Part shown: in pieces, positions 2,188 to 13,689 of the stretch
Position numbering within the stretch: the stretch's first letter is position 1
Layout of the letters: each line of letters opens with the position of its first letter
Source of the DNA: an uncultured Oscillibacter sp.
GTDB taxonomy: Bacteria > Bacillota > Clostridia > Oscillospirales > Oscillospiraceae
NCBI GenBank assembly: GCA_948435975.1
Contig: CAOJHG010000012.1
Span: forward strand, 1 to 13,689
Direction: 5' to 3'
Length of the DNA stretch: 13,689 bases
Made by a program: the position numbers and the translations under genes
Notes under the pieces: generated by a model
Told to the model about the DNA's origin: nothing
Seen by the model: the letters and a program-made list of their open reading frames with translations, nothing else
Databases searched by the model: none

Positions 2188-2757
2188 ACAGGACTTCGGG
2201 AGATGGCGGATCAATTGGCACTGGACTTAGTTGACAAGGGATTGGTGACAGACCAGCTGACGCTGACGGTGGGCTATGACATTGAAAACCTGTCGGACCC
2301 GGAGCACCGTAAGAACTATCAAGGCGAAATCAAATCGGACCGTTACGGGCGTTCTGTTCCCAAACACGCCCACGGCACCGTCAACCTGGAGGACTACACC
2401 GCTTCCACAAGGCGTATTATCACCGCCGCTTTGGAGCTGTTTGACCGCATCATCGACAAGAATCTTCTGTCCCGCCGCCTGACGATTACGGCGGGCCGTG
2501 TGCTGCCGGAGAGCGAGGCCCCCCAAAAGAAGGCGTTTGAGCAGCTTGACTTGTTCACAAACTACGCCGCTGTTCAGGAGCGGCAGGAACGGGAAGCCAT
2601 TGAATTGGAACGGGAGAAGAAGGTGCAGAAGACGGTGCTGGATATTAAAAAGCGTTTTGGGAAAAACGCCATCCTGAAGGGCATGAACTTCCAGGAGGGG
2701 GCCACGGCGAAGGAGCGGAACCGCACGATTGGAGGGCATAGAAGTGGGGAAGTATGA
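2188..2757 (+). pseudogene. Y-family DNA polymerase (UmuC/UvrX type), 5'-truncated remnant
   Basis: Only the C-terminal part of a translesion polymerase remains. From about 2188 the frame reads TGLREMADQLALDLVDKG, then TVGYDIENL, DRYGRSVPKHAHGT and RRLTITAGRV, the little-finger (IMS C-terminal) region of Firmicutes Y-family polymerases. The palm and fingers, including the catalytic acidic residues, are absent; an in-frame TAG lies just upstream and 2064-2187 has no polymerase-like frame. An internal ATG at 2203 could yield a 184-aa product, but it lacks a clear ribosome binding site. Residues 114-118 from that ATG are QLDLF, the canonical beta-clamp-binding pentapeptide, followed by a charged helix. 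It overlaps the start of the YolD-like gene, its usual partner. Family call is secure; loss of polymerase function follows from the missing domain. Confidence 0.8.
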
Positions 2758-3145
2758 TGATATTATCGACCTGCCGCATCCTGACTCGGAGCGGCATCCC
2801 CGGATGCCTATGGCAAACCGGGCAGCGCAGTTTTCTCCATTCGCGGCCTTGACGGGTTATGAGGATGCCGTCCGGGAGACTGCCCGGTTGACGGACAGCA
2901 AAGCCGAGCTGACCGAGGAGGAGCAGTCCACTTTAAACACAAATCTTCAAATGCTGGCGGAAAAAATTGAAGAGCATCCAGAAGTGACGCTGACCTATTT
3001 CCGGCCAGACCAGAGGAAATCCGGCGGGGCCTATGTCACAGTTGCGGGCAGGGTGAAAAAACTGGACCATCATTTGAGGATGATGGTTCTGGATGATGGC
3101 CAGACAGTTCCAATAGAGGACTTAACGGAGGTTTGGCTTAGTTGA
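2744..3145 (+). CDS. YolD-like protein
   Basis: A 133-aa protein of the YolD-like family, whose genes commonly lie next to Y-family polymerase genes (YolD with UvrX in Bacillus) and are linked to the SOS response; molecular role not settled. It opens with KYDDIIDLPHP and carries MANRAAQFSPFAALTGYEDAVRETARLTD, the family's most conserved stretch (around residues 22-52). The C-terminal half alternates strands and ends VPIEDLTEVWLS. GTG at 2744 is preferred over TTG at 2729 because GGAGG (2731-2735) lies 8 nt before it and inside the TTG reading. It overlaps the polymerase remnant by 14 nt, showing translational coupling to a partner that is now broken. The gene itself looks intact. Confidence 0.88.
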   Translation: MGKYDDIIDLPHPDSERHPRMPMANRAAQFSPFAALTGYEDAVRETARLTDSKAELTEEEQSTLNTNLQMLAEKIEEHPEVTLTYFRPDQRKSGGAYVTVAGRVKKLDHHLRMMVLDDGQTVPIEDLTEVWLS

Positions 3146-3380: not shown

Positions 3381-4775
3381 ATGAGCGATCAGAGCAGCAA
3401 TTTCCCGTTTGGAACCTTCGGACAGGAAGAAGGGCTGGATGTTGCCGCCATTTTTGGCGGCGGAGCCCCGGCCAGCGATGTGAACCCCTTTGAGACCCCG
3501 GTAGCGCAGCAGGCGGAATCCTCCACGCCAGAATCCCAGCCCCAAGTTACAGAGAACGCCGCTCAGCCGCCTCAGACAGCTCCGGCTCTCCAGGCGGCCC
3601 CCGCGGCAGTCTCGGAACCCCAGACGCCCCAGACGGCTCCGGCATCCGCTCCCGCTCAGACTGTGGTACATGCCGCGCCTCCGGCGGAGATGGATAATCC
3701 TATTGCGGCGGCCTTCACCCAGAAGGCGGCGGAGAACACCCAAAAGGGCCTTTTGGAAAAGCCTCCGGTGTTTTTTCACAAGAACGTGAAGGAGCCCATT
3801 GAGGACGCCTCCATGACCTTCGAGGAGCTTCGGATTCGCAAATCCGAGGACTTCACGGATCTGGAGGAGGGCAAATACGTGTCCTGGAGCGTGGACTACT
3901 GCGGCATCCGCAAAGATATCAAGGACCCCAAGGGTACCACCATCATCTCCGTGAAGGAGACCATTGAGCGGTCCCGGGAGTTCTTGGACGCCCTAAAGAA
4001 GTCCAAGGACAAGAACCCGGCCTGCTTGGTGAAGCCCAAGGTGGTCATGAAAACCAAGGGCACCGCCGCCAGCTATAAGGGAAACTTCCAGACGGTGGAA
4101 GAGGCCCGGGCGTCGGACAAGGTGATTTGCGTCATCCCCTCCAGCGACGGCAGATTCTATGAGCTGCGAAAAACGGATGCGGGCGAGTTCATCGCCCCCG
4201 CAAGCAAGGTTGTAGATTTTCAGCAGGTGCGGGCCGGGTTCACCCCGGCCCTGCCCCTGATCCCCCTGGACCTGATCGGCTCCATCGCCTCTTTTTTCCG
4301 CTCCTTCATGGAGGAAAACGCGGAGTATGAGGCTCTGGCGCTGATCTACTGGTCTGTGGAGGCTGAGTGCTTTTTCGCTTACGTCCCGAAGCAGACCGTC
4401 CGTAAAGACCATATAGAGGCGGACCTGCGGGACTGCCCCTATGACGACGATCCCCGGTATATCCGCTACGCCGACATTCACAGCCACAACAGCATGGAGG
4501 CGTTTTTCTCCCATGTGGACGACAGGGACGAACGGGGCACTGGATTGTATCTTGTGATGGGGAAGCTGGACCGCTTCTTCCCGGATATCAAGGCCCGGAT
4601 TTCCTGCGGCGGTTCCTTTGTGGACATCGACCCCGGAGAGGTGATCGAGGGGCTGAAACGTGATTATCCCCAAGATTGGGTGAAGAATGTAAGCCGGGAG
4701 CAAAAACACCCCTTGCGCGGTTTTCCTGTAAGGCCAAGCGGCTTCCTGCCCTCTGCCTTGGAGGAACGGCTATGA
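3381..4775 (+). CDS. JAB/JAMM metallopeptidase-like protein (PRTRC protein A-like)
   Basis: A 464-aa protein whose C-terminal domain (about 290-435) carries an exact JAMM zinc motif: His367-Ser-His369, seven residues, Ser377, two residues, Asp380, with Glu315 or Glu317 as the upstream acid. Enzymes of this fold cleave isopeptide bonds of ubiquitin-like tags or process tag precursors. Residues 1-110 are low-complexity, rich in Pro, Ala, Gln and Thr with a repeated PQTAPA, and should be disordered. The middle (about 130-285) has a compact domain with a strand-strand-helix order at 166-200 (YVSWSVDYCG to TIERSREFL), then VKPKVV at 217 onward. JAB proteins of this context are usually shorter, so the N-terminal extension is notable. 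AAAGGAG lies 9 nt before the ATG. The stop overlaps the next start as ATGA, coupling it to the E1-like gene. Fold is secure from the motif; the substrate is unknown. Confidence 0.87.
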   Translation: MSDQSSNFPFGTFGQEEGLDVAAIFGGGAPASDVNPFETPVAQQAESSTPESQPQVTENAAQPPQTAPALQAAPAAVSEPQTPQTAPASAPAQTVVHAAPPAEMDNPIAAAFTQKAAENTQKGLLEKPPVFFHKNVKEPIEDASMTFEELRIRKSEDFTDLEEGKYVSWSVDYCGIRKDIKDPKGTTIISVKETIERSREFLDALKKSKDKNPACLVKPKVVMKTKGTAASYKGNFQTVEEARASDKVICVIPSSDGRFYELRKTDAGEFIAPASKVVDFQQVRAGFTPALPLIPLDLIGSIASFFRSFMEENAEYEALALIYWSVEAECFFAYVPKQTVRKDHIEADLRDCPYDDDPRYIRYADIHSHNSMEAFFSHVDDRDERGTGLYLVMGKLDRFFPDIKARISCGGSFVDIDPGEVIEGLKRDYPQDWVKNVSREQKHPLRGFPVRPSGFLPSALEERL

Positions 4776-5533
4776 AATATCCGACGGATGTGCCGGTGAA
4801 GCTCGTCCAGCTGGGTGCCGGCGGTACTGGCGGCCATATCGCGCCTCAAATCTACCGTCTGCTGTACTCCCTGAAGCGTCCCGCCCGTTACATCATCTGC
4901 GACGGCGATAAAGTGGAGGAAAAGAACCTGTTGCGGCAGAACTTCTCCCCGGCGGACCGGGGGGAGAATAAGGCCAGGGTGCTGGCGGAGCGATACTCTA
5001 CGGTGTTCGGCCTGGAGGCAGAATATGTACCTTCCTTCATTGAAAAGCTAGACACACTGATGGAGCTGATCCGGCCCAATGAATGGGAACTGGATGAAAT
5101 GTCCCGCGGCAAGGTAAAAGAAATGGTGATTCTGCTGGGAGCCGTGGACAACAACAAATCCCGTCGGCTCTGCCATCAGGCGTTTTACCAGTCCAAGGAT
5201 CTGGTGTATATCGACAGCGGCAATGGGGAGTTCACCGGCCAAATTGTCTGCGGTGTGCGGCGAAACGGGCACACGGTATTCAAGCCCATCGGCGGCGTGC
5301 AGCCGGAGCTGCTGAAGGACACGGACAAGTTTCCCTCGGAGCTTTCCTGCGCCGAGGCGTCTGTTTCCGATCCCCAGAGTATGGCGGCCAACATCACGGC
5401 GGCTACAGCGGTGGTGAACATGGTGTACAACATCCTGGCCCTTGGTGAGAACCTGGTGCGGCAGACGGAGTTTTCCACCCGGACTGTGAAGATGCAGACA
5501 ATTTTGGAAAAGCAGAGGAGGAAAGCGGCATGA
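4772..5533 (+). CDS. ThiF/E1-like adenylyltransferase (PRTRC ThiF-like)
   Basis: A 253-aa E1-like enzyme that would use ATP to adenylate the C-terminus of a small beta-grasp protein and may pass it on as a thioester. Visible features: a Rossmann glycine loop LGAGGTGG (14-21); CDGDKVEEKNLLRQNF (43-58) with the acidic residues and Arg55 and Asn57 that contact ATP; Lys67 in GENKAR; GAVDNN (123-128) with Asp126; and Cys193 in ELSCAEASVSDPQS as the best candidate for a catalytic cysteine. It has no separate zinc ribbon or ubiquitin-fold domain. The start at 4772 is set by the ATGA overlap with the JAB gene; longer versions would run inside it. Its own stop overlaps the clamp gene start, again as ATGA. 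Family is secure; the modified partner is not known. Confidence 0.9.
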   Translation: MKYPTDVPVKLVQLGAGGTGGHIAPQIYRLLYSLKRPARYIICDGDKVEEKNLLRQNFSPADRGENKARVLAERYSTVFGLEAEYVPSFIEKLDTLMELIRPNEWELDEMSRGKVKEMVILLGAVDNNKSRRLCHQAFYQSKDLVYIDSGNGEFTGQIVCGVRRNGHTVFKPIGGVQPELLKDTDKFPSELSCAEASVSDPQSMAANITAATAVVNMVYNILALGENLVRQTEFSTRTVKMQTILEKQRRKAA

Positions 5534-6618
5534 GAGCCACTGTAGACGCGAAAGCCTTTTCGGAGGCATTGAACCATGTGGGCAGGGTGCCCCGGCAATC
5601 TACCATCCCTGTATTGGCGGGCGTGCTGGTCCGGTTTGAAAATGGACGCTGCTCTATAACCGGCACGGACTTTACCACTTGGCTAACCATAACACTGCCC
5701 GCCGTCGGTGATGACTTTACTTTTTTACTGGATAACCCCTCGGATGCGTCAAAAGCCTGCCGGTTCTTTGACGGTAAGCTGACGCTGGAGCTTCATGGCA
5801 AAAACCCGAAATATCCGTCGGTAACGCTTTCCTGCGGCCATCGTTCCGGGACCTTTAATGCATTCCCGGAGGAAGACTATCCAGAACAGCCCAAGCTGGA
5901 AGCAGGGGCTTCCTTTACCGCCAGCGCCGCCGCTCTGTTGAAACGGATCGAGCGGGTGAAGTATGCTGTCCGTGTGCCCGAGGGTTCTTCTGACTCGCCA
6001 CAGCGGACCTGCGTGCAGTTCAGCGGAAACGACGTGTTCTGTTTGGACGGCTATCGGGCCGCCTGTGATACGGATTCGGCCTTGTCTTTCCCTGTACCCT
6101 TCTTGACCTGGGGAGATTCCCTGGCTCACCTGAAGCTGATGGGAGACAACGATGTGGTGGTCCTTGTAGAAGAAAGCTATGTCCTGCTTTCCTCGGACAC
6201 CGTGGCCATTTGCTGCCGCCGGGAAGGTGTGGAGACTTATCCATTGTGGGATGCTGTTCCAAAGAGCTTCCCGGAGGAGTTTTTTGTTTCTCCGAAGATA
6301 TTCCTGCGGGAGTTAGAGTACCTGAAAGGCTTTCAATCTAAAAGGAACCGTATTCCAACTGTACTTTGCGGAGGACGGTTGTTCCTGGATACTGAGGAGA
6401 ACAAATGCTCTACGTCTGTAGAGATTGAGGGCGAAAGCAAGATCGCGGTGGGCTTTAACCCGCGCTATATGAAGGACGCCTTGACACAGTTCAAAGATGA
6501 ACCTCGTGTAAAAATGAAGCTTAGCATTGGCTCCGGCCCCATCATCGTCGAGGCCGAGGGCCGGAAGGACTTCGCAATGGTGCTGCCGGTCCGGCTGCAC
6601 GGGCTTATGGCGGCGTGA
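5530..6618 (+). CDS. DnaN-like DNA polymerase III beta sliding clamp
   Basis: A 362-aa protein with the length and three-repeat layout of a bacterial sliding clamp (usually 365-380 aa). Domain 1 starts ATVDAKAFSEALNHVGRVPRQSTIPVLAGVLV and contains ITGTDFTTWLT, the pattern of SLTATDLE in DnaN. Domain 2 begins near residue 130 (SFTASAAALLKRIERVKYAV) with the FCLDGYRAA stretch. Domain 3 begins near 238 and the protein ends AMVLPVRL, matching the C-terminal LPMRL of DnaN that helps form the partner-binding pocket. It diverges strongly from chromosomal DnaN, as expected for an element-borne copy. It is translationally coupled (ATGA) to the E1-like gene, so the cell probably makes both together. 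Likely role: processivity clamp for the element, or a platform for the operon's other proteins. Fold call is good; the role is inference. Confidence 0.83.
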   Translation: MRATVDAKAFSEALNHVGRVPRQSTIPVLAGVLVRFENGRCSITGTDFTTWLTITLPAVGDDFTFLLDNPSDASKACRFFDGKLTLELHGKNPKYPSVTLSCGHRSGTFNAFPEEDYPEQPKLEAGASFTASAAALLKRIERVKYAVRVPEGSSDSPQRTCVQFSGNDVFCLDGYRAACDTDSALSFPVPFLTWGDSLAHLKLMGDNDVVVLVEESYVLLSSDTVAICCRREGVETYPLWDAVPKSFPEEFFVSPKIFLRELEYLKGFQSKRNRIPTVLCGGRLFLDTEENKCSTSVEIEGESKIAVGFNPRYMKDALTQFKDEPRVKMKLSIGSGPIIVEAEGRKDFAMVLPVRLHGLMAA

Positions 6619-6629
6619 AAGGAGCGGTT

Positions 6630-6911
6630 ATGCAAAACGAACAGAAGATACTGACCCAGGAGGAGTTCAGCTATTTGACCGCCAAGGCCGGAGATTTGGT
6701 GGAAGAGGCCGTGGCATATAACGCTATGGACTGTATGCTGCCCGCCCATATGAGCGCCGAGTGCATCCAGATGGGAGAGCCCTATTCGGAGCGGTGGGAC
6801 CCGGAAATGGAGAAGGACCGGACAACCTTTGCCACGTTCAAGCGTATTTCCAAAGGCGTATGGCAGTATTGCGGCCATTGCTTTCTGGGCGAGACCGTGG
6901 AAAGAGGGTAA
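6630..6911 (+). CDS. Small unknown protein with a single CxxC (93 aa)
   Basis: A 93-aa acidic protein. GTG at 6615 overlaps the clamp gene's TGA, but ATG at 6630 follows AAAGGAG (6618-6624) by 5 nt and is the better start. The first half looks helical (LTQEEFSYLTAKAGDLVEEAVAY); the C-terminus holds one Cys81-Gly-His-Cys84 pair, which could complete a metal site with His40 or a partner chain. No membrane segment or signal peptide. Not assigned to a family. Its place between the clamp and a zinc-ribbon gene 3 nt downstream suggests a subunit of the same machinery; no further function can be read. Confidence 0.68.
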   Translation: MQNEQKILTQEEFSYLTAKAGDLVEEAVAYNAMDCMLPAHMSAECIQMGEPYSERWDPEMEKDRTTFATFKRISKGVWQYCGHCFLGETVERG

Positions 6912-6914
6912 AGG

Positions 6915-7367
6915 ATGGACTATCAGGATTTTGAGAAACTCTATCGCAAAGACCCAATTATATTCCATCTTGGTATGGAGCTATTAGAGGACCGAGGGCG
7001 GGACATGCTTTCTATTAGTACGGACCAGGCGCTTTGCGCCGCCGTCACAAAAAAGTTGTCCGAACTAATTTCGGCGGATAAAGTTATGGACGTGGTGAAA
7101 GCCGCCAGAGCTTTTGCTGGGTTGAGCGTTGTGGAGCGGTTGTCTTATGCCGCCCGCTGCGGTATTAAGCTGGAGTATGGTCCCAAGGAAAAGCGTGGCG
7201 TCTGCCCACTTTGCGGCGGCCAGCTACGCTACGATTGGCCCCGCGCCATTGGCTGGACCTGCAAAAAATGCGGAGCCACCGGCAGAGAGGTGTATCGGGA
7301 AATATTTGATGGCCACTATGACCTGCGAGACGCACAAGGGAGCCCCGTTGGTGGCCGGAATCATTAA
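6915..7367 (+). CDS. Zinc-ribbon protein of unknown function (150 aa)
   Basis: A 150-aa protein. The N-terminal 90 residues are mostly helical (FEKLYRKDPIIFHLG, SADKVMDVVKAARAFAGL). The C-terminal part is a classic zinc ribbon: Cys97-Pro-Leu-Cys100, a 15-residue loop, Cys116-Lys-Lys-Cys119, followed by a short basic helix. Such ribbons bind nucleic acid or proteins. It begins 3 nt after the preceding stop; the ribosome binding site is a weak AGAGGG. Immediately downstream is the beta-helix protein gene with a clear AAGGAG. The metal site is clear; the role is not. A DNA- or clamp-binding adaptor would fit the context, but this is only inference. Confidence 0.77.
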   Translation: MDYQDFEKLYRKDPIIFHLGMELLEDRGRDMLSISTDQALCAAVTKKLSELISADKVMDVVKAARAFAGLSVVERLSYAARCGIKLEYGPKEKRGVCPLCGGQLRYDWPRAIGWTCKKCGATGREVYREIFDGHYDLRDAQGSPVGGRNH

Positions 7368-7385
7368 GGAATTAAGGAGAACGAT

Positions 7386-8045
7386 ATGAAAAATCTGTAT
7401 ATCCCCAAGGGCCAGGCCCTTAACTATGACACGCTGGAGACGGAGCATCTGGTTGTAAACGGTATCTTGAACGTAGCCCACGGCCTCAAGGCCCGAACCA
7501 TCAGCGGTGACGGACTGGTGCTTGCCGGGACTGTCTCGGCGGACGATATCCGCGTGCGGGAGCTGGAAGCCGCCTCGGTGTACTGCCTGCGGCTGGCGGC
7601 CAAGCGGGTCCAGGCGGCGGAGGTGTTCGCCTCGGAGAGCGCCGCCGTGTCCTGCTATCTCTGCGCCGACTACGTGTCGGCGGACCGGCTGACGGTAGCT
7701 CTGCATGAGGTGGGGAAGATCGACGCCCGTGAGGTCGCCGTTCTGACGCCGAAGGAGCGAAGCCTGTTCCGGCTGTTGCTGGCCTCGGCCCTGCGGTCGC
7801 TTTGGGCGTCCATGACCACGCCCCGCGAGAGGGAGGTCCTGGATGCGGAGTACCGGCAGGTACAGGAGGAGCCTTCTGCCGGAAAGACGGAAGATCCCAG
7901 GGATGAAGAACTGGAGCGGATTATCAGCATCTTCAAGTTGCTGCGTAACTCCGGCTATACGCTGAAAGTCATCCCCGGAACGCCAGAGGACAACGCACCC
8001 GCCTTTAATTTCCTGGCGGAACGGGCAAACCTTCCCGCCGCGTGA
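7386..8045 (+). CDS. Bactofilin-like beta-helix protein
   Basis: A 219-aa protein. Residues about 18-120 show hydrophobic residues every second or third position in repeating rungs (HLVVNGILNVAHG, LKARTISGDGLVLAGTVSADDIRV, ELEAASVYCLRLAAKRV), the look of a right-handed beta-helix as in polymer-forming bactofilins, though shorter and less regular. Residues 125-190 become helical and charged (TPKERSLFRLLLASALRSL, then a Glu-rich stretch), and the C-terminus ends in AERANLPAA. Bactofilins form filaments near the membrane; here the setting among DNA genes suggests a scaffold, for instance in positioning the element. Start ATG at 7386 follows AAGGAG by 7 nt. The stop overlaps the next gene's GTG (GTGA). 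Fold inferred from pattern alone; it could also be a repeat protein of another type. Confidence 0.6.
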   Translation: MKNLYIPKGQALNYDTLETEHLVVNGILNVAHGLKARTISGDGLVLAGTVSADDIRVRELEAASVYCLRLAAKRVQAAEVFASESAAVSCYLCADYVSADRLTVALHEVGKIDAREVAVLTPKERSLFRLLLASALRSLWASMTTPREREVLDAEYRQVQEEPSAGKTEDPRDEELERIISIFKLLRNSGYTLKVIPGTPEDNAPAFNFLAERANLPAA

Positions 8046-8239
8046 GCGCCGTGCGGGAGCGGATAGTCCTGGAGCGGACCGTTACGACTGAAAACGGACG
8101 GACGGTTCTTCGAGAGAGAAGAATCTGCGGCGTGCGGAACGCGGATGGGACCTTTCATCTGCGGGCCTGCTGCGGAAAGCGGTTTGTCGTCCGGCGGAAA
8201 TCGGACGGGCAGATGAAAAGCGGAAGCAAGGCGGCTTGA
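8042..8239 (+). CDS. Small basic protein of unknown function (65 aa)
   Basis: A 65-aa protein rich in Arg and Lys (IVLERTVTTENGRTVLRERRICG, then FVVRRKSDGQMKSG), with two beta-hairpin-like segments and a CC pair at about residues 44-45. It starts with GTG at 8042, sharing bases with the previous TGA, so translation would be coupled; it has no ribosome binding site of its own. A second GTG at 8051 would also fit. The strong positive charge would suit nucleic acid binding, but no family is recognised. Confidence is limited by its size and the lack of an independent start site; the coding pattern (GC-rich third positions as in its neighbours) supports it. Confidence 0.5.
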   Translation: MSAVRERIVLERTVTTENGRTVLRERRICGVRNADGTFHLRACCGKRFVVRRKSDGQMKSGSKAA

Positions 8240-8250
8240 CCGTCTTTGAA

Positions 8251-8283
8251 GGCAAGGGACCGGACGGCCCCTTGCCCATTTTT
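8251..8283 (+). terminator. Intra-operon terminator or attenuator
   Basis: GGCAAGGG (8251-8258) pairs with CCCTTGCC (8269-8276) over a 10-nt loop, followed by CATTTTT (8277-8283). Next is AAGGAGG and the ATG at 8300. As the genes on both sides are on the same strand, it would lower but not stop transcription of the downstream half, so it may set a dosage step or be overcome by antitermination. It resembles the 3277-3352 element in lying directly before a ribosome binding site. Confidence 0.6.
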
Positions 8284-8299
8284 ATAAGGAGGAATCGCA

Positions 8300-8764
8300 A
8301 TGTCTGTGAAGTCTCAAGAAAACAACATGCGCCGTCTGGCCAACCTGCTGAGCAAAGACCTCGGGTATATCTGGGGCGAGCGGGAAAGCGGCCCTAATGG
8401 AACAAAGAAAACCTTTTTGAACCTGGGCAAGGTGTTCTTGCGGACGCTGTCAAAAGACCTGGGCCTCCGGGATACTAAGGTTCAGTCCAACCCCAGTGGC
8501 ATCGCCGTTTCCGGCGACTGCTCTCTGATTGGAATGTGGGAGCACAACGGTATCTACATCAGCCTCTCCCAGTTCTGTGGCGGGAAGTATGTGCTGCTGT
8601 ACCGCATGGCCCGGCATATTCGGGACTATTCCAGCAGCCACAATCATTTCCTGACGCTGGACGATCTGCGGAAGCTGTCCTACACCGATCTGCTGGAAAA
8701 GTTTACGGCTCTGCGAAAGGAGGGTGGTTCCCATGGGCGACGCAACAATAGCTGGGCAGCCTGA
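8300..8764 (+). CDS. Unknown protein (154 aa)
   Basis: A 154-aa protein that begins with a basic helix (MSVKSQENNMRRLANLLSKD) and continues with short strands such as GIAVSGDCSLIGMWEHNGIYISLSQF, then a helical end (LTLDDLRKLSYTDLLEKFTALRKEGG). I do not recognise the family; the glycine- and aromatic-rich middle looks like a compact alpha/beta fold. It has an excellent AAGGAGG 8 nt before its ATG. Its last 32 nt overlap the methylase gene in another frame, so the two are coupled. Position next to the methylase suggests a partner of it, but nothing in the sequence shows that. Confidence 0.75.
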   Translation: MSVKSQENNMRRLANLLSKDLGYIWGERESGPNGTKKTFLNLGKVFLRTLSKDLGLRDTKVQSNPSGIAVSGDCSLIGMWEHNGIYISLSQFCGGKYVLLYRMARHIRDYSSSHNHFLTLDDLRKLSYTDLLEKFTALRKEGGSHGRRNNSWAA

Positions 8765-10154
8765 TGGACCGCAGTATTACGCGGTGGAGCAGCTTCGGAC
8801 GGCGCAAAGCCGCATCTTGAACCTGTCCCAGTCGCTGGTCATCTGGCGGGCCAGGGTGGAGAAGTACCGGACTACGGACCGCACCGCCGCCAAGGATACC
8901 TTTGACGTTCTGTTGAGTGTCCGCCATGATTTGGCGGAGGTCCTAGGGAAAACCCGGCTGCTTTTGATGGAGGCGGAGGAATATCAGACAGCCCAAACCG
9001 CCGGAAAGCTCCGGGACGGACTGCTGGGCTTCAACCTCATGAGCAGCAATTACCGGCCTGTCTATGACACGCTCCACGCTTTTGCCCAGAGCCTTCCGGT
9101 GGAGGGGACCACCAACGCCGCCATCGTTGGACGGCTGATGAACAACATCAAGTTGGGCTACTACCCCACGGACCCGGACAACATTGCCTGGATGCTCCGG
9201 GGGATTCAGTTCCCGGAGGGCGTGACTACGAACCTTCTGGACCCCTGTTGCGGGTGCGGCAAGGCCCTGCGGCAGATTGCCCAGGGCAACAACTGCTACG
9301 CCTATGGGATGGAGCTGGACGAAAGCCGGGCAGAGGAGGCCCAAACGAGACTGCATCGTGTAGGCTTTGGCAGCTTCTTCTACAGCCGGATCAGCCGCGA
9401 GGCGTTCCATCTGCTGTTTTTGAACCCGCCGTATTTGTCCGTTCTCAATGAGAGCGGAGGAAAGTCCCGGCACGAGAAGCGGTTCTTGATCGAATCCTTC
9501 CCGGCTCTGGCCTATGGGGGATTGCTGATTTACGTGATCCCCTACTACCGCCTGACACCAGATATCTGCCGGGTCCTGGTTGACAACTTCTCCGATCTCG
9601 CCGTCTGGCGTTTTACCGACGCCGAGTTCAAAAAATTTAAGCAGGTGGCCGTGTTCGGCGTTCGGAAGCGAAGGGATCTGGTCCTCCAGGACACGCTCTG
9701 GCTGGAGCGGTACGCGGAAAATCCCGCCGCCATCCCCAGCCTGGCCGAGCTGCCGGAAAATCGGTATGCCCTTCCGGGGGAGCCGCTGGAGGTCCCTCTC
9801 TTCCAGGGACAGAAATTCAACCGGAGAGAGCTTGAGCAGCAGCTCCGGCGCTCTGCCAGCTTCACGCAGATGATGACGGCCCGCAGCGAGTTAGACGACG
9901 GGACAAAGCGGCCCCTTCTGCCGCTGTCCATCAGCCAGATCGGGCTGGTGGGCGGCTCCGGCATGATTAACGGGCTGATTGAATGCGATTCGCCCCATAT
10001 CATCAAAGGCCGGATTATTAAGGTGATTCGCACGGTGTCGGAAGAACTGCACGACCATGATGGAATGCGGATGGGAGAAGAAATCCGCGAGACCATTTCC
10101 AATAAGATGATTTTCAACATCCTGACGCCCAAGGGCTTCAAGGCACTGACGTAA
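8733..10154 (+). CDS. N6-adenine DNA methyltransferase (DUF6094-like)
   Basis: A 473-aa class I SAM-dependent methylase. The SAM loop is LLDPCCGCGKAL, with Asp170 and a cysteine-rich variant of the usual FxGxG; MELDESRAEEAQTRL follows as the acidic ribose-binding strand and helix; NPPY (231-234) is the N6-adenine catalytic motif. The N-terminal 140 residues are helical (LRTAQSRILNLSQSLVIWRARVEKY) and may bind a partner. The part after 350 has no recognisable target-recognition domain. It ends with an LTPKGF stretch. ATG at 8733 is chosen because AAAGGAGGG lies 8 nt upstream; the GTG at 8724 lies within that site. No restriction endonuclease gene is visible, so it is probably an orphan methylase that marks or protects the element. 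Family resemblance to DUF6094 is from memory; the methylase call is firm. Confidence 0.88.
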   Translation: MGDATIAGQPDGPQYYAVEQLRTAQSRILNLSQSLVIWRARVEKYRTTDRTAAKDTFDVLLSVRHDLAEVLGKTRLLLMEAEEYQTAQTAGKLRDGLLGFNLMSSNYRPVYDTLHAFAQSLPVEGTTNAAIVGRLMNNIKLGYYPTDPDNIAWMLRGIQFPEGVTTNLLDPCCGCGKALRQIAQGNNCYAYGMELDESRAEEAQTRLHRVGFGSFFYSRISREAFHLLFLNPPYLSVLNESGGKSRHEKRFLIESFPALAYGGLLIYVIPYYRLTPDICRVLVDNFSDLAVWRFTDAEFKKFKQVAVFGVRKRRDLVLQDTLWLERYAENPAAIPSLAELPENRYALPGEPLEVPLFQGQKFNRRELEQQLRRSASFTQMMTARSELDDGTKRPLLPLSISQIGLVGGSGMINGLIECDSPHIIKGRIIKVIRTVSEELHDHDGMRMGEEIRETISNKMIFNILTPKGFKALT

Positions 10155-10166
10155 GGAGGAAAAAAG

Positions 10167-10496
10167 ATGCCTACGGTAAAAAATCCACTGGCGGAGAGAA
10201 AGCCGCCAACAAAAAGGAACCAGCCTCCGGCGAAACTGGTTCCCCTTGGCCGCACGGTGGCAACTCCCGCTGTGCTTGACGCCGTTCCTTTTCTGGAAAT
10301 CCAGATTGCTCTGGACCGTCATAGGCGGCACGATTGGGGCGACGTCTGCGAGGAGGATCGGAAGCGGAACGACCAGGCGCTGAAAACCGGCGAACGCCTG
10401 TTGTCCGTCTATAAGAGCGGCGGCGGCACGAAGTTCTGGATTATTACCGAACGGGACAGGTCCGTTACTACGGTCCTGCTGCCCTCGGATTATTAA
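10167..10496 (+). CDS. WGD-motif 'plasmid-related' protein (109 aa)
   Basis: A 109-aa protein of a type often found on plasmids and integrative elements, with a disordered basic start (KNPLAERKPPTKRNQPP), then LGRTVATPAVLDAV, HDWGDVCEEDRKRNDQAL (56-72) and a C-terminal KFWIITERDRSVTTVLLPSDY (89-109). Database entries in this group are often called plasmid-related or, wrongly, type I restriction subunit; I know of no tested function. It is 12 nt after the methylase stop with GGAGG before its ATG. Its usual occurrence beside DNA methylases and PRTRC-type genes supports a role in the element's upkeep. Family recognised by pattern; function unknown. Confidence 0.78.
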   Translation: MPTVKNPLAERKPPTKRNQPPAKLVPLGRTVATPAVLDAVPFLEIQIALDRHRRHDWGDVCEEDRKRNDQALKTGERLLSVYKSGGGTKFWIITERDRSVTTVLLPSDY

Positions 10497-10510
10497 GGAA
10501 GGAGTTTAAT

Positions 10511-11068
10511 ATGAGAGCAAGCCATCTGGCGGTAGTCTTTCCGGTAAAGGGACTTCCGCGAAACACGGTCCACGCCTGCGGTGCGCTCTGGACGCGAACC
10601 AGCCGTATGCTGCTCCCGGGCCTGGGAAGGTTCTATGACCGATTCCACCCGGCGGCACAGCCTTGGGGGGTGGATATCCCAACTCCGCTCAGCGTTGTGC
10701 TGGGACGGGACGACCCCAGCCTGTTTCTCCGCCTGTATTTTCGGGCGAGGAAGTTTCGGGAGTCATCCATTGATTTCCATGTGGGCGCAGCAATTGCCGA
10801 AACAGGCTTTGAAAAGCTCAAAAAGGTGGGCGATGTTCTGATCTGTCCCGTAACCCTGAACGGAACAAACAAATGTCTGGAGGGACATATCTTCTGGCAC
10901 GCGGCAATAGCCCAAGGGGAGATTTTGCCGGACTGCGGCATCTACTACGCGGAGTACAAGCGTTCCATAGTGGAGCCGGGGCTGGAGAAGTGCATTGAGA
11001 GCGCCCCGGCGGACTACGCTTTATGCATGGTCACGCTGGAGCATGGGGAGGACCGTCATGGAATTTGA
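10511..11068 (+). CDS. Unknown protein (185 aa)
   Basis: A 185-aa protein with alternating strands and helices (ASHLAVVFPVKG, DIPTPLSVVLGRDDPSLFLRLYF, GDVLICPVTLNG, IFWHAAIAQGE). Rich in Phe, Leu and His, without a cysteine pair or membrane segment, so likely soluble. No family is recognised. AAGGAAGGAG precedes the ATG by 6 nt. Its last 11 nt overlap the next gene's start in another frame. The tight packing and shared strand put it in the same operon; no specific function can be drawn. Confidence 0.7.
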   Translation: MRASHLAVVFPVKGLPRNTVHACGALWTRTSRMLLPGLGRFYDRFHPAAQPWGVDIPTPLSVVLGRDDPSLFLRLYFRARKFRESSIDFHVGAAIAETGFEKLKKVGDVLICPVTLNGTNKCLEGHIFWHAAIAQGEILPDCGIYYAEYKRSIVEPGLEKCIESAPADYALCMVTLEHGEDRHGI

Positions 11069-11354
11069 TAAACAGCGGTTCTTTCAGGCTCTTTTGGAGG
11101 CTCCGGCGGAACAGCCTCTGCTGGAAACGCCGGAGCGCAGCGAATATCTGCAAACGCAGGTCTTTGACAGGCTGGAAGCCGGAGAGACCTTCAGCCTGAT
11201 GGCCCTGGACTGGAACGCTTTCGAGCTGCGGCACGTTACGCCGGTGAACTATGACCGGTTGTATGACCGGGCGCATCAGGGGTGGCTCCTGGGCATCAAT
11301 GCCTTTCTCCGCAAAGCGCCCGCTGCCAGCCTGAGCGAGAAGAGCTTTTTTTAG
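11058..11354 (+). CDS. Unknown small protein (98 aa)
   Basis: A 98-aa protein that reads as helices separated by short strands: MEFDKQRFFQALLEAPAE, SEYLQTQVFDRLEAGE, FELRHVTPVNYDRLYDRAHQGW, ending KSFF. The ATG at 11058 is chosen because GAGGACCGTC upstream gives a GGGGAGG site (11045-11051) about 6 nt away; longer forms would lie inside the previous gene. It overlaps that gene by 11 nt and is followed 8 nt later by the next ATG. Not recognised; it could be a small helper protein or, less likely, the missing beta-grasp protein (no GG tail is present). Confidence 0.6.
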   Translation: MEFDKQRFFQALLEAPAEQPLLETPERSEYLQTQVFDRLEAGETFSLMALDWNAFELRHVTPVNYDRLYDRAHQGWLLGINAFLRKAPAASLSEKSFF

Positions 11355-11362
11355 GAGGAGCT

Positions 11363-11899
11363 ATGTACAACTACGAATATGAGGCGGACGTTCTTCGGTT
11401 CTTGCGGCTGGCAAAATACCTTTACTGTCAGGCTCCCGCCGCCCTGGAGGCTATTTTACGGGTATACGGAAATTTTGACCTGGAGCATCTGTTTGAGCTT
11501 TGCGAGAGCATCATCTGGGAGATATGCACCGACGTCTTCTTTGACCAGGATGATGGCTACGAAACTTCCTTCTGCACCTTCAGCCATCCGCTTATGGACC
11601 GCTTCTGCGCTTTGAGCGGAGAGTGGAGCTTTATCAGCAGACAATCCGACGGCGCTTGGCAGCGGAAGCTCGGCGACATTGCGGAGTATTACCTGATGGG
11701 GACAAACTACAGCGTCATGCAATTGGAATGTTTTCCGGGGCAAAACCACGCGAAACTTCGAACCTGGTTTTCCTCGGACTGCTATGACCCCGCAGACTTC
11801 GGCAACAGCCTTGTGGACATGCTGCTTTGCGTCCAGCGGGAAAACAAGCGATTGGAAGGACTGCTGAAAGAAGCGGGAGCGAGAAAGGAGGCGGCGTGA
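11363..11899 (+). CDS. Unknown protein (178 aa)
   Basis: A 178-aa acidic, mainly helical protein rich in aromatic and cysteine residues (YEYEADVLRFLRLAKYLYC, FELCESIIWEICTDVFFDQDDGYE). The C-terminal 35 residues (ENKRLEGLLKEAGARKEAA) form a charged helix, suggesting a coiled-coil tail that binds another subunit. AGGAG sits 5 nt before the ATG at 11363. The stop shares bases with the next gene's ATG (TGATG), so it is coupled to the E2-like gene. Not recognised as a family. Its pairing with an E2 gene makes a partner or regulator role plausible, but that is inference. Confidence 0.7.
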   Translation: MYNYEYEADVLRFLRLAKYLYCQAPAALEAILRVYGNFDLEHLFELCESIIWEICTDVFFDQDDGYETSFCTFSHPLMDRFCALSGEWSFISRQSDGAWQRKLGDIAEYYLMGTNYSVMQLECFPGQNHAKLRTWFSSDCYDPADFGNSLVDMLLCVQRENKRLEGLLKEAGARKEAA

Positions 11900-12585
11900 T
11901 GCCGGCGGAAAACAAGGACAATACCAGGGATATGGTCCTGCGAATATCGCCCTCAAGAAACACGTTGATGGTTGAGGAGCTGAAACCGGGTGGGGCGGTG
12001 GCTTATAAAGAGATCTCGCCCCTGGAGTTGTACTTCATCATCAACAACAGCTATACCAGCAGGGACCTTCTCAGAAGCGGTTTTCTCCCGGAGAACTGCC
12101 TCCATGTTTCCATGAGCAGCGCGGAGAGACACTTTATTGTCTGGAACCACGAGCTGCGGGCGGATATCACCTACAAGGATACGAAGTACCCGGATTTCCC
12201 GCTTCCCCGGCTTGTATTTGGGGTTCGGATGTTGGAAAACGGAAAGGTGGCGGATTGCTCCATCGGTGTAGTGGCGGACGAAACGCCCACGCCGGAGACT
12301 CGGATGTTTCACTACCCCTTCTCCAATGTTTATGAGCACGGAAAGGTGTGTTCTGGAAACAACATTCTGCCCAGGTACCGGAAGCTCCAGGCACTGAAGC
12401 ATTTCCCCCGCTACCTGCTGGAGCTGCCGGACAATGACGATATGTACAGCCCAAAAAACAACAAGCTGGGCCTTGGGCACAAGGAACTACTGGAGCACCT
12501 GAAAGACAAAGACCCGGCGTATTACTACTCGGGCATCCTGATTCCGAGCGGCACTACGCTGGCGGACTATATCTGCGGGAGGTGA
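11899..12585 (+). CDS. Prokaryotic E2-like protein (Prok-E2_D / PRTRC protein B-like)
   Basis: A 228-aa protein of the bacterial E2-like (UBC-fold) group found with ThiF and JAB genes in PRTRC-type cassettes. The key motif is FHYPFSNVYEHGKVC at 137-151, with Cys151 as the candidate thioester cysteine, followed by SGNN and a helix. The first half has strand-rich sequence (MVLRISPSRNTLMVEEL, KYPDFPLPRLVFGVRM) as expected for the E2 beta-meander; the last 50 residues add a helical end (LGHKELLEHLKDKDP). Bacterial E2s of this type usually have 200-250 aa, so the length is right. The start at 11899 is set by AAAGGAGG (11884-11891) and the TGATG overlap. With the E1- and JAB-like genes it would give a tag-transfer chain, yet no tag protein was found. 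Family call is fairly firm; activity is unproved. Confidence 0.82.
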   Translation: MPAENKDNTRDMVLRISPSRNTLMVEELKPGGAVAYKEISPLELYFIINNSYTSRDLLRSGFLPENCLHVSMSSAERHFIVWNHELRADITYKDTKYPDFPLPRLVFGVRMLENGKVADCSIGVVADETPTPETRMFHYPFSNVYEHGKVCSGNNILPRYRKLQALKHFPRYLLELPDNDDMYSPKNNKLGLGHKELLEHLKDKDPAYYYSGILIPSGTTLADYICGR

Positions 12586-12589
12586 CGCA

Positions 12590-13525
12590 ATGTCACAGAA
12601 AGACGCGCGCACGATCCAGGCGGAGCTGGCCAAGCCCTTCGCCGCCGAGGATTTGGAATGGCGGCTGCAAAGGACCTTTGAGGTGCAGGGCCGCATGACC
12701 GGCATTGCCGTCCCCTACGTGACCAACCGGGCCATCATGAACCGGCTGGACAGCGTGGTGGGGCCGCAGAACTGGTACAACCAGTACCAACCCTGGCACA
12801 CCGCTGGAAAGAAAGAGGCCCAGATCTGCGGTATCTCAATTTACTTCGAGGGCCGGGGCTTCATCACCAAATGGGACGGCGCGGAGGATTCGGACGTCGA
12901 ACCCATCAAGGGCGGCCTCAGCGACAGCATGAAGCGGGCCGCCGTCCAGTGGGGCATCGGCCGGGTCCTGTACAACATGGACACGGTTTGCGTGGACGTG
13001 GAGCAGTGGGGCAAGAGCTGGGTCATCAAAAAAGGCGCCCGGGCCAAGCTGGACAAGGCGTATCTGGATATGCTGAAAGCCTTGAAGCTGGAGCCCGCCC
13101 CTGCCGGGGGACTCCAGTCTCTGATCTCCAGCGGCGATGTGGAACCGGACGATACCCCCAGGCGGACCGGGACCCCGGCGATTCCGCCCAAGGACGGCGG
13201 CACACCGAAGGAGGGAGGAGTTTCCGCGAAACAGTCCTCCAAAAAGACGGAACAGGCGGCGCAAGCTGTCTCGGACCAGCCCGGCTACACCTATATCGTC
13301 ACCGCCAGCAGCACGCAAAAGGGCATGAAAACGACCAGCGTGTCGTTGCGCCTGAGAGGTGCGGACGGCAAGGAGATCACCGCCTTTGCCCAGGGCGAAC
13401 ACCCCCTGCTGGTCCCCGGGGCCATGCTGGCTTCCGCCAAGCTGACCACCAGGAAGCAGGATACGGTGGTGTACTACGTCCTGGAATCGTACAAAATCGC
13501 GGAGCCCCAGGGGGAGGCCGCGTAG
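12590..13525 (+). CDS. Rad52/Rad22-like single-strand annealing protein
   Basis: A 311-aa protein. Residues 1-170 match the Rad52 DNA-binding ring domain: VPYVTNRAIMNRLDSVVGPQNW (41-62), then ISIYFEGRGFITKWDG (82-97) and KGGLSDSMKRAAVQWGIGRVLY (107-128), the most conserved stretch. Such proteins coat ssDNA and anneal complementary strands. Residues 180-230 are a Pro/Gly/Lys linker (disordered), and residues 232-305 form a second, strand-rich unit (YTYIVTASSTQKGMKTTSVSL to VVYYVLESYKI), possibly a small OB-like fold that binds DNA or a partner; many phage Rad52-type proteins lack such an addition. Start ATG at 12590, 4 nt after the E2 stop, with GGGAGGTGA upstream. It is followed by an SMC-like ATPase, a usual partnering of annealing protein and nuclease/ATPase. 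Confidence 0.87.
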   Translation: MSQKDARTIQAELAKPFAAEDLEWRLQRTFEVQGRMTGIAVPYVTNRAIMNRLDSVVGPQNWYNQYQPWHTAGKKEAQICGISIYFEGRGFITKWDGAEDSDVEPIKGGLSDSMKRAAVQWGIGRVLYNMDTVCVDVEQWGKSWVIKKGARAKLDKAYLDMLKALKLEPAPAGGLQSLISSGDVEPDDTPRRTGTPAIPPKDGGTPKEGGVSAKQSSKKTEQAAQAVSDQPGYTYIVTASSTQKGMKTTSVSLRLRGADGKEITAFAQGEHPLLVPGAMLASAKLTTRKQDTVVYYVLESYKIAEPQGEAA

Positions 13526-13538
13526 AAAGGAGTTTTAC

Positions 13539-13689
13539 ATGGAAAAGATCAAGTCTTTTCAAATCACCGGCATGACCATTTCCGGCTTCAAGTCTTATCA
13601 GGAGCCCACGGAATTGACCTTTGGAAATCCTACCATTATCACCGGCGGCAACGGCCGGGGGAAAACCAGCGTGGCGGACGCCATCGCCT
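13539..13689 (+). CDS. SMC/SbcC/RecF-type ATPase, 5' part only
   Basis: Only the first 50 codons are in the window. They read MEKIKSFQITGMTISGFKSY and then NPTIITGGNGRGKTSVADAIA, an ABC-type Walker A (GGNGRGKT, 36-43) preceded by the 'GFKSYQEPTELTF' strand-loop-strand typical of SMC, SbcC and RecF N-termini. AAAGGAG (13526-13532) is 6 nt before the ATG. The rest, including Walker B and any coiled coil, lies beyond the end of the window, so a short RecF-like and a long SbcC-like protein cannot be told apart. It directly follows the Rad52 gene, pointing to DNA end processing or recombination. Confidence 0.83.
   Translation, partial: MEKIKSFQITGMTISGFKSYQEPTELTFGNPTIITGGNGRGKTSVADAIA

Follow-up and report, generated by a model that had tools for sequence, protein, structure and literature searches.

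The 13,689-base contig CAOJHG010000012.1 from an uncultured Oscillibacter sp., referred to here over its whole length as the window, carries what we read as a mobile element's PRTRC-like cassette for protein modification, with a modifier that is born as the ubiquitin-like (Ubl) domain of a Ubl-JAMM precursor. We give this reading a rough probability of 0.55. From position 3381 to the right end the genes lie on the + strand in the order JAB (the JAMM protein), E1, DnaN-like clamp, five small genes, DUF6094, four small genes, E2, Rad52 and ATPase, and start and stop codons overlap as ATGA between JAB and E1 (4772/4775) and between E1 and clamp (5530/5533). A preliminary description of this DNA had listed the JAMM, E1, clamp, E2, Rad52 and ATPase genes, their coupled starts and their catalytic motifs, and the open reading frames (ORFs), family matches and residue positions bear it out on all three. 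It proposed no modifier, for which a candidate now appears, from structure prediction, to be fused to the JAMM protein; this point is new here. The features that bear on it are as follows.

3381..4775, + strand: Ubl-JAMM precursor, 464 aa, with a low-confidence N-terminus of about 120 aa, a ubiquitin-like domain, a linker and a JAMM domain
3750..4061, + strand: fused ubiquitin-like beta-grasp domain (predicted), aa 124-227, ending KTKG227
4479..4520, + strand: JAMM motif HSH-x7-S-x2-D, aa 367-380; HSH, Ser and Asp are invariant in alignment A1
4772..5533, + strand: E1, a ThiF-like adenylyltransferase; Cys193 at 5348-5350; ATGA overlap with both JAB and clamp
11899..12585, + strand: E2-like protein (Prok-E2_D / PRTRC_B-like); Cys151 at 12349-12351

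The predicted ubiquitin-like domain with its KG ending is the firmest new point. Residues 120-231, predicted alone, gave a model with a predicted local distance difference test (pLDDT) score of 88.5, a predicted template-modelling (pTM) score of 0.81 and the order strand-strand-helix-strand-strand-helix-strand, that is, on structure prediction, a beta-grasp fold whose flexible C-terminal tail ends in glycine. The structural matches are individually weak and no single one is significant. Most of the 50 rows returned by Foldseek and VIA-align are what we take to be ubiquitin-like domains (FERM, RA, PB1, USP UBL, the ATG8 family, ISG15, parkin and ubiquitin itself), and a bacterial multi-ubiquitin-domain protein is the top Foldseek row. 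Ubiquitin residues 1-74 align with residues 127-224 of the JAB protein, which places Lys226-Gly227 at the position of the ubiquitin tail. The whole-JAB profile found no solved relative at E 0.01, where absence from the structure library carries no weight, and an NCBIfam search with the fused domain alone gave no match. The fused domain was also considered as the published JAB-N domain and rejected: the N-domain failed to match four short JABs (E 0.48), whereas window residues 228-440 matched them at E 2e-11.

The KG dipeptide is invariant in all 40 alignment rows, and the domain ends in [TSK]KG in each of 21 distinct homologues, which change in length directly after it. KG also stands ahead of the JAMM part in seven long JABs from other Gram-positives, and of the 11 Ubl ORFs that stand alone in related cassettes, eight have [KR]G at the matching place, three of these eight extending beyond it. 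A profile of the fused domain scored 31.5 against the stand-alone Ubls, compared with at most 16.5 for 60 shuffles and at most 19.9 for seven other families; the first hhalign comparison gave no more than a hint (E 1.8e-4 at 48% probability, with controls from 0.003 to 0.97). Near one E2-JAB-E1 set (L127:5783-6163) we noted a tandem Ubl ORF whose repeats are separated by GTKG and followed by an additional tail.

The same domain could instead be a permanent docking or regulatory part of the JAB, as in USP11, USP15 and USP7, with the real modifier lying beyond the contig or being a host protein. The USP UBL domains among the structural matches and the partial profile link to the stand-alone Ubls are in keeping with such a role, but it would leave the KG tail of all 21 domains and eight of 11 stand-alone Ubls without obvious reason. 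Furthermore, a hidden Markov model (HMM) of the Ubl found no separate Ubl ORF in the fetched lineage loci, which are limited stretches. We consider a permanent domain unlikely. The other small genes of the window were examined as sources of a modifier and set aside, as no ubiquitin-like family was found among the window proteins scanned.

The catalytic residues of the enzymes are intact. JAB has HSH at 367-369, Ser377 and Asp380. The E1, a single ThiF domain of 253 aa, has a GAGGTGG loop at 15, DGD at 44, NLLRQ at 52 and Cys193, which is an invariant column in alignments A3 (13 rows) and A4 (8 rows); its nearest relatives are in metagenome-assembled genomes (MAGs) of Oscillibacter. Cys151 of the E2 is an invariant column in a 29-row alignment of diverse E2s. 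Pfam assigns ThiF (3.8e-11), DNA_pol3_beta (1.6e-9), Prok-E2_D (2.3e-11) and Rad52 (7.9e-15) to the window, the match of JAB to Prok-JAB being below threshold (18.4 bits against a cut-off of 25). In those comparisons with up to eight relatives that allowed an estimate of dS, the ratio of nonsynonymous to synonymous substitution rates (dN/dS) of the six main genes is 0.06-0.37, many dS values being above 1; in the measurable pairs these genes are under purifying selection.

We infer the following course of events. The ubiquitin-like modifier would be made as the N-terminal domain of the precursor and freed by the JAMM half, which would cut after Gly227 in cis or in trans. E1 would activate Gly227 and carry the modifier on Cys193, and E2 would receive it on Cys151 and attach it to a target, from which JAMM would take it off again. 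The likeliest targets would lie in the module with which the element replicates and recombines: the clamp where one is present, whether the element's or the host's, and in its absence Rad52, the DUF6094 protein or the SMC/Rad50-like ATPase.

Comparison with known systems places the cassette closest to PRTRC, with which it shares a JAB, a ThiF-type E1, an E2 with its cysteine, and a location on plasmids and mobile elements. The NCBIfam matches all fall below the PRTRC cut-offs: PRTRC_A 6.7e-10 (38.9 against 101.8 bits), PRTRC_ThiF 6.9e-24 (84.5 against 144.75) and PRTRC_B 3.6e-10 (39.6 against 131.45). The conserved catalytic cysteines by which PRTRC E1 and E2 are recognized are present in both proteins, and the window enzymes appear by these profiles to be distant relatives of PRTRC A, ThiF and B. 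A scan of 19 window proteins, from a contig that is cut at both ends, gave no match to PRTRC_C, the separate ubiquitin-like protein, nor to ParB, E or further PRTRC genes. Operon type 6d, the PRTRC cassette, has a separate ubiquitin-like gene ending in glycine in the account excerpted here (PMC1779556), whereas the window Ubl is fused to JAB, and Rad52, the DUF6094 protein, the SMC-like ATPase and the clamp stand in place of ParB and protein E. Neither section 14 of that account nor its excerpted passages name a clamp or Rad52. Within the open-licence literature we found no link between PRTRC and a clamp and no Ubl-JAMM fusion of this kind; the titles and abstract openings of the literature containing the word PRTRC announce no clamp-linked role for the cassettes.

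BilABCD likewise combines a Ubl, an E1, an E2 and a JAMM protease, the last of which trims the Ubl precursor, but as described in the excerpted parts of PMC11354881 the Bil Ubl is separate and has two domains, compared with a single fused domain in the window, and the Bil E1 has two adenylation domains, compared with one. The polyUbl/BUB systems are echoed in the multi-ubiquitin protein that heads the Foldseek rows and in BubCD (PDB) among the solved relatives of the E1; in type 6e, in the excerpted account, JAB is instead fused to E1 and the Ubls stand alone (PMC1779556). A Bil-like defence in which phage proteins are tagged would account for the likeness in enzyme classes and for the sporadic presence in the genus given below. 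It would also suit the weak PADLOC matches of E1 to E1-E2 models and of the DUF6094 protein, which occurs in 24 of 29 tabulated lineage loci, to the mad2 defence model (2.7e-14). As the ten proteins scanned with PADLOC included JAB, E2, clamp and Rad52 without a match and the genes that are fixed neighbours serve replication and recombination, we regard defence as distinctly unlikely. A sulfur-carrier pathway of the ThiS/ThiF kind, in place of protein tagging, would explain the ThiF-like E1 but not the accompanying E2 with its invariant cysteine, and no sulfurtransferase family was found among the window proteins scanned; we judge it highly improbable.

The cassette looks as if it belongs to a mobile element, in agreement with the preliminary description. 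The window is an entire contig from a MAG of 61% completeness, and so the element is truncated at either end. The same MAG has a second JAB-E1-clamp set (contig C35) and, on C326, a portion of the region that comes after it. In the nearly closed genome G786 the E1 of a related element is preceded at about 19 kb by a RepA_N initiator and followed at about 40 kb by two large serine recombinases, and a type IV coupling protein was one of the 33 proteins scanned in the flanks; on family matches these are candidate parts, perhaps of more than one element. The E1 occurs in 11 of 86 genomes of the genus, including that of the window, and such sporadic presence fits a mobile element. In a sample of the order, the E1 HMM matched 324 of 394 genomes at E 0.001, but only nine (that of the window included) reached at least 82 bits, the next scoring 43. 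In a sample of the phylum, 12 of 398 genomes matched the window E1, two of them strongly besides that of the window, and each of these two has a DnaN about 2.4 kb past E1.

The left end of the window has a serine resolvase gene (175-795, - strand; 1.8e-29). Positions 2203-3145 hold first a 184-aa fragment from the C-terminal part of a Y-family polymerase (IMS_C), which contains the clamp-binding-like motif QLDLF, and then a YolD-like gene. In L074 (12619-14802) a polymerase frame of full length (503 aa) and YolD adjoin the JAB-E1 operon but run on the other strand; no other fetched locus has this neighbourhood, apart from a weak edge match in L111. The remaining features of the window, among which the clamp is an accessory part, are listed below.

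5530..6618, + strand: DnaN-like sliding clamp, accessory part
6615..8764, + strand: five small genes (98, 150, 219, 65 and 154 aa), no family above cut-off; the 150-aa product has a zinc-ribbon-like stretch
8736..10154, + strand: DUF6094 methyltransferase-like protein (6.5e-201); coordinates of the frame, start uncertain
10167..11899, + strand: four small genes of 109, 185, about 98 and about 178 aa, none matching a family
12590..13525, + strand: Rad52-like protein (Rad52 7.9e-15)
13539..13689, + strand: first part of an SMC/Rad50-like ATPase with a Walker-A-like GGNGRGKT, the contig stopping about 50 codons into the gene; a full-length relative in L096 is above the Pfam cut-off for AAA_23 and below that for SMC_N

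Eukaryotic PCNA is ubiquitinated and SUMOylated, which offers a comparison for ubiquitin-type enzymes beside a sliding clamp and Rad52. The window differs in that its clamp is a DnaN, for which tagging is hypothetical, and that no E3 was seen. The first and third Pfam domains of the clamp reach their cut-offs (38.4 against 24.4 bits and 27.0 against 27 bits), whereas the full-length dnaN model (4.6e-19) is below its own (68.6 against 137.65 bits). The clamp is outside the cassette core in the window lineage. It is present in 12 of 28 rows of the E1 tree, counting the broken-looking L011 (two pieces) and the fragment L098 and leaving L018 and L101 out of the tree, and two changes, for example one gain and one loss, suffice to explain this pattern. 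Identity between the window and L010 is 60% for the clamp, compared with 83-93% for JAB, E1, DUF6094, E2 and Rad52; against L097 the clamp has 77%, JAB and E1 have 63-70% and the rest 86-88%. The clamp identity is thus out of step with that of its neighbours, and as its dS (5530-6618) is also higher than theirs in the L010 pair, exchange between elements is suggested. By these comparisons the clamp seems to have a history different from that of its neighbours, diverging or being exchanged independently, and with its optional place on the E1 tree this makes it a recurrent yet optional, exchangeable part. E2 and Rad52 are steadier: of the 25 fetched lineage loci long enough to show them, 20 have both after E1 and the other five (L011, L018, L019, L075 and L101) have neither.

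Decayed- or shortened-looking copies were seen in L010, where JAB and E2 are each in two frames, in L018, where E1 and clamp are in pieces, and in L011, L019 and L101. The protein P0205 (619 aa, DnaN and ThiF domains; one member, one contig) was not accepted as a true E1-clamp fusion, because its sequence, judged by eye, leaves E1 after the SC motif as a frameshift would give.

Far from the window, clamp genes recur near PRTRC-type E1s. In 18 plasmids chosen without regard to dnaN (H1, H2, H8, H9, H10, H11, H13, H15, H16, H17, H29, H60, H62, H72, H80, H81, H90 and H91), nine, from four phyla, have a DnaN-type gene within 8 kb of E1, compared with 1.4 expected for one dnaN placed at random in each plasmid, an expectation that ignores the clustering of backbone genes. 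The flanks covered 20 kb in H1 (a Subdoligranulum plasmid that is also one of the 28 E1-tree rows), 12 kb in H2 and H10, 10 kb in H17 and 8 kb in the others, or less at record ends; the Pelobacter record (H81) stops just past E1 and is an incomplete test. Plasmids from Anabaena (H94) and Terribacillus (H27), which were chosen for a dnaN already seen, are excluded from these counts. Six of the nine clamps are annotated as DnaN (H8, H9, H17, H29, H62 and H91), and these beta subunits seed the HMM themselves or resemble its seeds; three were found by the HMM (H13, H16 and H90), of which those of H13 and H16 are weak (38.5 and 39.1 bits) and mutually related, and without H16 P = 1.3e-5. Clamp-loader genes directly follow E1 in three plasmids, dnaX and a delta-prime-type gene in Sporosarcina and Lysinibacillus and holA in Leptolyngbya, and in Halobacillus, as well as the selected Terribacillus, Rad52 and dnaN lie together upstream of the E2-JAB-E1 set.

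The clamp-binding consensus given in the excerpt of PMC12309361 is QL[S/D]LF or QxxLF. In eight Bacillota loci its strict form occurs within the first 45 residues of seven of 262 ORFs, namely five of the six long Bacilli JABs, one 5'-3' exonuclease ORF and one small ORF. The enrichment in long JABs has a Fisher value of 1.3e-8, for a pattern that was written post hoc, after the sequences had been inspected, and against a background of 256 other ORFs from six frames, some of which are not genes.

Several results weigh against our reading where it involves the clamp. The clamp is absent from 16 of the 28 lineage rows, nine of the 18 plasmids have no DnaN within the flank, and the JAB of the window has no strict clamp-binding match, with QKGLL directly ahead of its Ubl. 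Viral contigs point the same way: in the 80 best of 196 loci with an E1 of this type (L118-L197), E1, E2 and JAB are all present in 55, such triads without DnaN being common in large viral contigs, and DnaN is present in only two, both of the window lineage, and in none of the other 78, where the DnaN HMM would miss clamps of other families.

The absences in lineage, plasmids and viral loci, together with the independent divergence or exchange of the clamp, are what would be expected if the clamp were simply the element's own replication part, its adjacency to E1 reflected the clustering of plasmid backbone genes and tagging acted on other proteins. We hold this to be quite possible, at somewhat short of even chances; the excess over 1.4 expected neighbours, the clamp-loader genes directly after E1 and the motif that starts five of six long Bacilli JABs speak against it. 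At the other extreme, PRTRC-like systems at large might be clamp-modification systems of plasmids, in which a Ubl from a Ubl-JAMM precursor would be put on and taken off DnaN, of the element or the host. In Bacilli the N-terminal clamp-binding motif would then bring Ubl-JAMM to the sliding clamp, and tagging of DnaN would switch replication, lesion bypass or recombination. This wider proposal is tentative and we think it rather doubtful.

A partnership of the PRTRC-like cassette with the clamp is nevertheless plausible and has broad genomic support across the plasmids compared, which hints, by analogy with PCNA, at the clamp as a candidate for the tagged protein. The interpretation offered in the preliminary description is partly supported. 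Its expectation of a clamp near E1 stands in plasmids of four phyla and fails in the 16 clampless lineage rows, so that the observation it named as refuting, that clamp and E1 genes are seldom neighbours in related elements, is half true; since the clamp is optional in the window lineage, it cannot be the general substrate.

If correct, our reading of a modifier born as a Ubl-JAMM precursor would supply the missing modifier of a Gram-positive branch of bacterial ubiquitin-like systems, and Gly227 would be the exact site at which to examine cleavage and conjugation. The sliding clamp is one candidate partner through which the role of PRTRC-type cassettes may be probed, and if these cassettes did modify clamps they would be an independent bacterial counterpart of the ubiquitination and SUMOylation of PCNA. 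The kit described here, which gut bacteria seem to carry on a mobile DNA element, seemingly has its tag built into its own removal enzyme, and the frequency with which kits of this family adjoin a replication clamp hints at a bacterial counterpart of clamp tagging.

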